A DNA stretch of 34,352 bases from Gammaproteobacteria bacterium (lineage in GTDB: Bacteria > Pseudomonadota > Gammaproteobacteria > JABXHR01), in the NCBI GenBank assembly GCA_013373515.1, contig JABXHR010000030.1, positions 1 to 34,352 of the forward strand, in the 5' to 3' direction. The position numbers were made by a program, and so were the translations under genes. The notes beneath the pieces were generated by a model. That model was not told where the DNA came from, did no database searches, and was given only the letters and a program-made list of their open reading frames with translations. The number at the start of each line of letters is the position of its first letter. The stretch's first letter is position 1. Of the stretch, positions 8,099 to 9,564 are shown piece by piece.

Positions 8099-8124
8099 CC
8101 TCAATCCCTGTTAGAATTGCGCCG

Positions 8125-8160
8125 CCGCCGAGCATTTCTCGGTGTGGCGTTATTTTATTT
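8125..8160 (+). terminator. GC-rich hairpin with T-rich tail before the VUT transporter
   Basis: GCCGAG / CTCGGT pairs around a five-base loop (8127-8143), extended by further G-C pairs with bulges, and is followed by an interrupted T-rich tail (TTATTTTATTT). It ends 33 bases before the VUT start. It could end the RimK-zntB transcript or act as an attenuator in the VUT leader. A second short stem, CTCGC / GCGAG at 8163-8179, follows directly before the ribosome-binding site. Confidence 0.45.
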
Positions 8161-8192
8161 CGCTCGCCTATTTAGCGAGAATTGAGGACTGT

Positions 8193-8744
8193 ATGAAAAT
8201 CCTTTGGATTGCACTTTACGTTGCAAGTATCCTGCTTGCGAATCTCACACTGGATAAATTTATCCAATTGCCTGCACTGGGCGATTTCCCGGCCTTCGGC
8301 ATGCTAAGTGTCGGCACCCTGTTTTTTGCTTTTGTATTTACCCTGCGGGACAAATTGCACCAGTTTGGTCTTCCGACGGTATTTTTGGCGATCGGCTTGG
8401 CCTTGCTGGTCAATGTGGCGGCTGCAATTTGGCTGGATACGCCGTTTCGCTTTATCGCCGCATCGTTTATCGCCATTGCCGCCAGTGAATTGGCCGATAC
8501 CGCTGTCTACCAAAAGCTGATGGCGCGCGCTTGGCTAACTCGTGCACTGACCAGCAACGCGATCAGCGTGCCGCTCGATACCATTTTGTTTACTTTGCTG
8601 GCCTTCTACGGCGTGATGTCGAGTCAAGAAATGCTGGAAATCATCTATGCCGATTTGGTGTTTAAAACACTGATTGCCGCTGGATTGGCGGTGGTTTTGG
8701 CATTGGGAATCAAACGTGAGCCCACGGTGGAAGCAACGGCATAA
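8193..8744 (+). CDS. VUT-family membrane transporter (queuosine-precursor type)
   Basis: A 183-residue, largely hydrophobic protein with about six helices. The middle and C-terminal motifs fit the VUT family (COG1738/YhhQ-like): an acidic helix ASELADTAVYQKLM followed by SNAISVPLDTILFTLLAFYG. Characterised members import the queuosine precursors preQ0 and preQ1. A longer frame starts upstream, but ATG 8193 has TTGAGGA at 8183-8188 and gives a clean first helix. Its TAA stop shares a base with the ATG of the next gene (TAATG), so the two proteins are probably made together. The leader contains two hairpins. No match to a known preQ1 riboswitch is evident by eye. Confidence 0.82.
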   Translation: MKILWIALYVASILLANLTLDKFIQLPALGDFPAFGMLSVGTLFFAFVFTLRDKLHQFGLPTVFLAIGLALLVNVAAAIWLDTPFRFIAASFIAIAASELADTAVYQKLMARAWLTRALTSNAISVPLDTILFTLLAFYGVMSSQEMLEIIYADLVFKTLIAAGLAVVLALGIKREPTVEATA

Positions 8745-9115
8745 TGCAGTCGCATCCGTCTCAATTTGTCGATGGTGAGCTTAAGACCATCGACAATGCA
8801 CTCCCTGAGATTGAGACCGAGGTCGAGCATGTGGTGTATCTGCCCACGCTGTGCCTGAAGAGTCAAAACCCCAAAGCAGGTAGCTTGCTTCGCATTCGCT
8901 ACACTGCAGCGGCAAAGCTGCTAGAGCTGTTTGCCCTTGATCGATATATCCAAGCGTACATCGGCCATCCGACGGTGCGCGATATGGAATATTTCGTCCA
9001 AGTGATCGCGCTGGAGTGTGGTCGTGCGCTCGGCCAGCCGGTGACGGTGCTGGCTGAAATTGAATTCAATCAGGTGGCTCAAGGACAGCGGATTGAGGCG
9101 ACCTACCGTCCATAG
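8744..9115 (+). CDS. small protein of unknown function, possible diverged T-fold (QueF-like) protein
   Basis: A 123-residue soluble protein that I do not firmly recognise. It has a [18 protein letters not shown] stretch (Cys37) leading into a beta strand LRIRYTA, then a helix containing [14 protein letters not shown], then [18 protein letters not shown] and a final strand pair VTVLAEIEF / RIEATYR. This order resembles unimodular QueF (preQ0 nitrile reductase), where the catalytic Cys sits in SLCPKTGQPDF before a strand and an E-S-K-S-L-K helix start. The QueF catalytic Asp seven residues after the Cys is a Lys here, and the ESKS motif is reduced to ELFAL, so normal reductase activity is doubtful. 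TAATG overlap with the VUT transporter supports a role in deazapurine or pterin metabolism. Its 3' end overlaps mgsA by 13 bases, convergently. Confidence 0.6.
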
Positions 9116-9564
9116 TTAGGGTCGATCTGCCGTGCCAAATAGGCGCGGTATTCGTTGAGGTCTTGTCCGACCTGCAATTTATCCAATGCTGCAAAGCCCG
9201 GACTACTCACCATCAAATCTGCGGTGCTTTGATTACAGGCAATCGGCACGTCATACACTGTCGCAAGCCGCACCAAAGCCTTGATATCCACATCATGCGG
9301 CTGAGCGGTCATTGGGTCTTGAAAAAACACCAATGCCCCGATTTTTCCCTCTGCAATCATTGCACCGATTTGTTGATCGCCACCGAGCGGGCCGCTTTTA
9401 AGTGGGGTAATTTTAAGGCTCGGGCATTGCGCTAATAACAAACGTCCAGTGGTGCCTGTCGCCACAATGGGGTAGGCACTGAGTGATGTTTCATGGGTGG
9501 CAGCCCATTGACAAAGATCATGTTTCTTTTTGTCGTGTGCCACCATGGCAATTGATCGTTTCAT
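9103..9564 (-). CDS. mgsA: methylglyoxal synthase
   Basis: A 153-residue cytoplasmic enzyme converting dihydroxyacetone phosphate to methylglyoxal and phosphate, the entry to the methylglyoxal bypass of glycolysis. The family signatures are complete: [14 protein letters not shown] at the N-terminus, phosphate-binding [10 protein letters not shown] (about 34-43), [17 protein letters not shown] with the catalytic aspartate (about 63), [16 protein letters not shown] with the active-site Asp and His (about 83-93), and the closing [12 protein letters not shown] 9564 has only a weak ribosome-binding site. The length matches the E. coli enzyme (152). The last bases overlap the end of the convergent small T-fold-like gene. 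Confidence 0.96.

Follow-up and report, generated by a model that had tools for sequence, protein, structure and literature searches.

A QueF-like T-fold protein paired with a COG1738-family transporter: a candidate component of queuosine-precursor salvage

Introduction

In the stretch of DNA analysed here, 34,352 nucleotides of a gammaproteobacterial contig (JABXHR010000030.1; hereafter the window), the gene for a putative queuosine-precursor transporter ends in the very base with which the gene for a 123-residue protein begins. What might such a small protein do beside a transporter? A preliminary description, made from the sequence by eye, regarded it as resembling half of the T-fold of the enzyme QueF and suggested that it may be a carrier, a regulator or a modified enzyme acting on the imported base.

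The gene pair and its transporter

The two genes and their junction are as follows.

8193..8744, + strand: VUT / COG1738 (QPTR) family queuosine-precursor transporter, 183 aa (PF02592, TIGR00697, orthologues)
8742..8746, + strand: TAATG, stop/start overlap, translational coupling (sequence; in most other loci the two genes likewise overlap or lie close together)
8744..9115, + strand: QueF-like unimodular T-fold protein, 123 aa (AlphaFold, Foldseek 4f8b, hhalign, 18 paired homologues)

The transporter coding sequence runs from the ATG at 8193 to the TAA at 8742-8744, and the small-protein gene comprises 123 codons from the ATG at 8744, with a stop ending at 9115. The coupling claimed in the preliminary description, with one base common to stop and start, is confirmed in the sequence. 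The last 13 bp of the small gene (9103-9115) are shared, tail to tail, with the methylglyoxal synthase gene that occupies 9103-9564 of the opposite strand.

The upstream product, taken for a deazapurine-type transporter in the preliminary description, is a VUT/COG1738 member by its match to the Pfam family Vut_1 (PF02592; E=4.8e-13, 50.2 bits, above the cut-off of 27.2), while the score against the TIGR00697 equivalog falls just below its threshold (45 bits against 50.95). It shares 49-66% identity with its orthologues in 19 other loci and about 30%, over 81 aa, with E. coli YhhQ. The subfamily is predicted to take up preQ0 or preQ1, which is supported by the riboswitch context of four orthologues (see below). 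Among more distant VUT genes, one on a Deinococcus taeanensis plasmid (L099, 6433-9023) lies beside a 6-carboxytetrahydropterin synthase gene, an unnamed short gene and queC. Another, in the Pectobacterium phage PEAT2 (L101, 16863-18088), overlaps a gene annotated as queuine tRNA-ribosyltransferase, a possible case of phage-borne deazaguanine import.

Fold and ancestry of the small protein

The AlphaFold2 model of the small protein, built on the family alignment, is a confident T-fold (mean pLDDT 96.4, pTM 0.89). In a Foldseek search with this model QueF 4f8b ranked first (E 7.9e-6, TM 0.74) and FolE came next; the TM score of QueF-L 5jyx was 0.68. A relationship to FolE or QueD was set aside, since FolE is second structurally and its TM and sequence scores are lower than those of QueF. 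The features first picked out by eye are found in the model: the loop with C37 precedes strand 48-55, helix 62-70 is opened by E61-L62, and the closing strands span residues 100-107 and 114-121. What did not survive is the notion of half a T-fold, as the model represents a whole unimodular domain; an origin as half of a bimodular QueF is ruled out by this completeness and by a QueF-II match spanning residues 13-89.

Comparison of profiles points to the same relative. The family, which consists of the window's protein and 18 paired homologues, aligns with 19 canonical QueF-II sequences over 104 columns (hhalign, P=6.8e-6), and its profile had only two matches among PDB sequences, both of them QueF (E 0.2). 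TIGR03139 (QueF-II) is matched by 18 of the 19 members (best 1.3e-6) and PF14489 (Pfam QueF) by 16. The window's protein alone scores far below either cut-off (TIGR03139: 16.1 bits, E=0.0079, cut-off 86.9; PF14489: 14 bits, E=0.061, cut-off 27.3), and family members reach at most about 22 bits with the Pfam model, against 69-119 for the canonical QueF of the same genomes. A class-wide search with the single protein returned, besides itself, only weak matches to unimodular QueF proteins, the first 65-70 residues being about 33% identical; matches to XerC and CHS5 were short, far under any cut-off and attributed to chance. Homology to QueF and the status of a whole T-fold domain therefore follow from the family matches, the AlphaFold model, Foldseek and the profile-profile comparison, and the homology is well supported.

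Residues kept and lost

In QueF (B. subtilis numbering), Cys55 is the thioimide-forming nucleophile, Glu97 holds the base in place and Asp62 is one of the defining active-site residues, while the NADPH-binding motif reads E(S/L)K(S/A)hK(L/Y)(Y/F/W); sequences missing any one of these features were classed as non-QueF (PMC5372742). The counterparts of two of these residues are encoded as follows.

8852..8854, + strand: Cys37 codon, invariant in 19/19, aligned with the thioimide nucleophile Cys55 (HMM, hhalign)
8987..8989, + strand: Glu82 codon, invariant in 19/19, aligned with the base-anchoring Glu97

E82 aligns with the Glu of the FHE motif across a two-residue insertion (MAFFT, hhalign) and is probably the counterpart of Glu97, with D80 as a possible alternative in another register. 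The Glu of the QueF motif, E61, is likewise present in all 19 members. In total, 22 positions are invariant in the 19-protein alignment: I16, H29, P34, L36, C37, N42, P43, G46, S47, Y53, E61, F63, L65, Y68, H75, V78, R79, D80, E82, Q86, V100 and Q113.

Other QueF features are gone. The Lys noted at the catalytic Asp position of the window's protein (Q-P-D changed to N-P-K) is indeed there, and across the family this position is held by K, A, R, G, M, L or S, never by Asp. The motif reported as broken is so as well: ESKS/ELKS reads ELFA in the window's protein and E(L/V)F(S/A)L..Y in the family, the first Lys being replaced by Phe in 19/19 and the second not conserved as Lys. Moreover, the RGG element near the canonical QueF C terminus is absent from the family. 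By the criteria of the field the family is thus not QueF, because the catalytic Asp and the NADPH-binding Lys residues are missing from every member, and membership as a plain divergent QueF was not accepted, two defining residue features having failed. Nor is it QueF-L, which has both Cys and Asp (PMC5485725). Without the Asp and the two Lys of the NADPH motif, ordinary nitrile reduction is unlikely. The small protein is a descendant of QueF that no longer has the parts required for the known QueF reaction. Its gene shows dN/dS values of 0.03-0.20 across six close pairs and is therefore maintained by purifying selection.

A two-gene unit in distant bacteria

A contig scan with the window's transporter aligned with its nearest relative as the query gave 19 loci elsewhere, in 18 of which the next gene downstream, in the same orientation, encodes a homologue of the small protein (phmmer E 1e-37 to 1e-23). 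These homologues share 37-54% identity with the window's protein and occur in Alcaligenaceae, Lautropia, Neisseriaceae, Wohlfahrtiimonas/Ignatzschineria and other lineages. In 16 of the 18 the start of the small gene overlaps the transporter stop or lies within about 20 nt of it; by the start rule applied, the remaining two junctions are 31 and 159 nt apart. The exception (L047, on the same contig as in genome G001, of the GTDB family of the window) has a kinase-like gene after the transporter, in a genome that is only 58% complete. In the four Lautropia loci L048, L049, L050 and L063 the homologues carry long low-complexity extensions, Ala/Pro-rich and N-terminal, of up to about 200 residues, several with a Lys/Arg-rich C-terminal tail.

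The family-wide neighbour of the small protein is thus the COG1738 transporter (18/19 loci), as would be expected for the link to queuosine suggested at first. Neither of the two outcomes named beforehand as refuting the preliminary description, a confident fold other than a T-fold or neighbours unrelated to queuosine across the family, was observed. The QueF-II matches of 18 of the 19 members, and the return of this gene order in 18 of 19 loci reached through the transporter alone, exceed what chance would give. Flanking genes otherwise differ between distant lineages, so the conserved unit is the two-gene pair, and a larger conserved operon is ruled out by these differences between distant genera. 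The family is rare, being found in 1 of 369 class genomes and 1 of 398 phylum genomes, each time the window's own. The homologues were all found via the transporter, an approach that would miss members located elsewhere in genomes; the class and phylum searches argue that such members are few. Phage, plasmid and viral collections gave no relatives, and a phage or plasmid origin was discarded on this result. The small protein founds a rare, unnamed family, of which no description was found in a literature search confined to open-licence papers.

Leaders of the transporter genes

Two types of leader precede the pair.

L053:4957-4992, L055:825-858, L056:4962-4995 and L062:4962-4995, before the transporter pair: preQ1-I type III riboswitch-like leaders (aptamer core)
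8145..8192 of the window, + strand: leader hairpin CUCGC-CUAUUUA-GCGAG, just 5' of the transporter ribosome-binding site

The first type is found in both Wohlfahrtiimonas and both Ignatzschineria loci, where UUGGGUUCCCUCACCCCAA is followed by an A-rich tail, an A-AGG ribosome-binding site and the transporter start. These four leaders and the leader of E. coli yhhQ (NC_000913) have exactly the same 19-nt core, and the E. coli preQ1-I type III riboswitch that regulates yhhQ has been crystallised (PMC10622847). A structural pattern scan gave one site per locus, against 0.2 chance matches per 10 kb in mononucleotide shuffles; an Rfam search of L053 and L056 did not report a preQ1-I type III element. 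The transporters share only about 30% identity with YhhQ, over 81 residues. In E. coli itself, yhhQ has dcrB next downstream and no QueF-like partner, which, as far as sampled, belongs to the present transporter subfamily.

The second type is present in the window (8112-8192) and in seven loci (L045, L059, L051, L052, L054, L057 and L063), with a similar hairpin, a CUAUUUU-like loop and a stem of varying sequence (CUCGC/GCGAG, CCGGA/UCUGG, CCAGA/UCUGG, UCGGA/UCUGA). The 96-nt leader of the window folds at z -3.8, the hairpin segments alone being no better than shuffles. A known riboswitch was rejected for this leader, which had no Rfam match and no type III pattern; the hairpin is possibly an unrecognised regulatory RNA.

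Queuosine pathway genes in the host genomes

The window's genome, which is 97% complete, was searched family by family. It contains tgt, queA and queG; no QueC match exceeded the cut-off, a canonical QueF is absent, and the small protein is the only QueF homologue. Ten of the 19 genomes that carry the pair have a canonical QueF scoring above the Pfam cut-off; the other nine, the window's own among them, have none. Of all 19, QueC is found in six and tgt in 18, the exception being a Lautropia MAG (G372) in which none of the queried genes matched; tgt is thus present in eight of the nine genomes without QueF. As a baseline, 41 of 369 sampled class genomes have no QueF-profile match, a comparison that is only suggestive since the pair genomes are not independent. 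Of the two bases preQ0 and preQ1, only the latter is regarded as a precursor that a cell without QueF can use (PMC5372724).

These counts bear on two simple proposals. Replacement of QueF as a general role was dropped with canonical QueF in 10/19 pair genomes, and a role as a general QueF helper with no QueF in 9/19. The occurrence of the pair with and without QueF argues against a role defined by QueF; the job of the small protein tracks the transporter.

Possible roles of the small protein

The small protein is assigned to the handling of imported 7-deazaguanines on account of its conserved pairing, its descent from QueF and the preQ1 riboswitch. Under the reading that we prefer, at about even confidence, it is a non-reductase, base-binding acceptor or carrier partner of the transporter that handles a deazaguanine. 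The two genes would form a queuosine-precursor salvage cassette, in which the COG1738 transporter would import a 7-deazaguanine base (preQ1, or preQ0 where QueF exists) and the co-translated, QueF-derived T-fold protein, probably oligomeric, would receive or hold it in the cytosol. The retained QueF pocket may be used for this, with Glu82 and Glu61 for the base and Cys37 toward the C7 substituent, and the base would then be handed to Tgt, or to QueF where one exists; NADPH-dependent nitrile reduction would have been lost. The fold, the homology to QueF, the residues kept and lost, the conserved pair, purifying selection, the riboswitch of four loci and the pathway profile are shown; ligand binding, the carrier or acceptor role, the loss of reductase activity and the oligomeric state are what we infer for this protein. 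In favour of a carrier are the T-fold with QueF as its closest structure, the PDB profile matches confined to QueF, the QueF family matches, the invariance of C37, E61 and E82 alongside a variable Asp position and a Phe for the motif Lys in all 19, the pairing in 18/19 loci, the riboswitch in four, the presence with or without QueF, and the dN/dS values. Counted against it are the invariant Cys and the invariant polar residues H29, N42, S47, H75, R79, D80, Q86 and Q113, which together resemble an active site more than they do a passive carrier. We know of no need of VUT transporters for a cytosolic partner, and the lone L047/G001 orthologue suggests that the transporter may work without the small protein, although that genome is incomplete.

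The same residues can be read as an enzyme with altered chemistry, in which Cys37 would still attack the C7 group of an imported 7-deazaguanine, with H75, R79, D80 and another co-substrate in place of Asp and NADPH, to supply preQ1 or another Tgt-usable base in genomes without QueF. The invariant Cys with about ten further invariant polar residues is consistent with this, as are the nine pair genomes without canonical QueF, eight of them with tgt. A precedent is offered by archaeal QueF-L, which keeps the Cys and in which hydride is replaced by ammonia (PMC5485725), but QueF-L retains the catalytic Asp that the present family does not have. Furthermore, no candidate substrate or co-substrate is evident, and if the substrate is preQ0 the enzyme would be a redundant preQ1 former in the ten genomes with canonical QueF, so that we regard this alternative as possible but doubtful. 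Rather unlikely, too, is its extension to a new QueF-superfamily branch with a Cys reaction other than NADPH-dependent nitrile reduction, providing a Tgt substrate to bacteria without QueF and preQ0 synthesis. The idea of a divergent QueF that has remained able to reduce preQ0, its NADPH site rearranged and another residue serving as the general acid, draws on the common fold, on the retained Cys, Glu82 and Glu61, and on the small protein being the sole QueF homologue of a genome that has tgt, queA and queG and no queC. This seems improbable in view of the variable catalytic position that is never Asp in 19 members, the disappearance of both Lys as the motif changed from E-S/L-K-S/A-h-K to E-L/V-F-S/A-L-x in every member, the missing C-terminal RGG element and the co-occurrence of canonical QueF in 10 genomes. 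Equally little weight is given to a ligand-sensing regulator that would bind the transporter and gate uptake by the cytosolic preQ1 level: the tight coupling and the divergence correlated with that of the transporter (distance correlation r=0.87) would fit, yet in four loci a preQ1 riboswitch already appears to exert feedback control on the operon, and the distance correlation with Tgt is nearly as high (0.83). Since the two values are almost equal, specific co-evolution with the transporter is not demonstrated. Of the three roles offered in the preliminary description, none is singled out by the evidence; what has been added is that QueF is excluded by definition and that NADPH-dependent reduction is unlikely.

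Comparison with known systems

Unimodular QueF (TIGR03139, EC 1.7.1.13; B. subtilis QueF, 4f8b) is similar to the acceptor or carrier candidate in its T-fold, nucleophilic Cys, base-anchoring Glu and motif Glu; the family differs in having no catalytic Asp, neither NADPH-motif Lys and no RGG element, and in coexisting with canonical QueF in 10 genomes. The QueF-Like archaeosine synthase (5jyx) is also a QueF-derived T-fold protein that retains the Cys and is not an NADPH reductase. In contrast to the bacterial, Asp-less family paired with a transporter, QueF-L has retained the Asp, and its substrate is preQ0 in the tRNA of archaea (PMC5485725). With regard to the transporter, YhhQ / QPTR (COG1738), which transports preQ0/preQ1, belongs to the same Pfam family and its riboswitch core is shared by four loci, but the window's transporter falls in a separate subfamily and YhhQ has dcrB downstream in place of a QueF-like partner. 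The QueT / QueK / QueL systems salvage queuosine precursors, as the pair is proposed to do; they consist of other protein families, and no such partner was seen beside the pair.

Implications for queuosine salvage

To our knowledge, queuosine-precursor transporters are few, and whether they are specific for preQ0, preQ1 or queuine has yet to be settled. A cytosolic partner that is conserved and descends from the enzyme for the same base offers a direct handle. Such a partner would explain the supply of preQ1 in salvaging bacteria without QueF, or reveal a COG1738 subfamily with an acceptor protein. With this family, the QueF / QueF-L / FolE T-fold lineage gains a branch that is bacterial and has no catalytic Asp, and the recurrence of the pair in distant bacteria points to an undescribed component of queuosine-precursor salvage.
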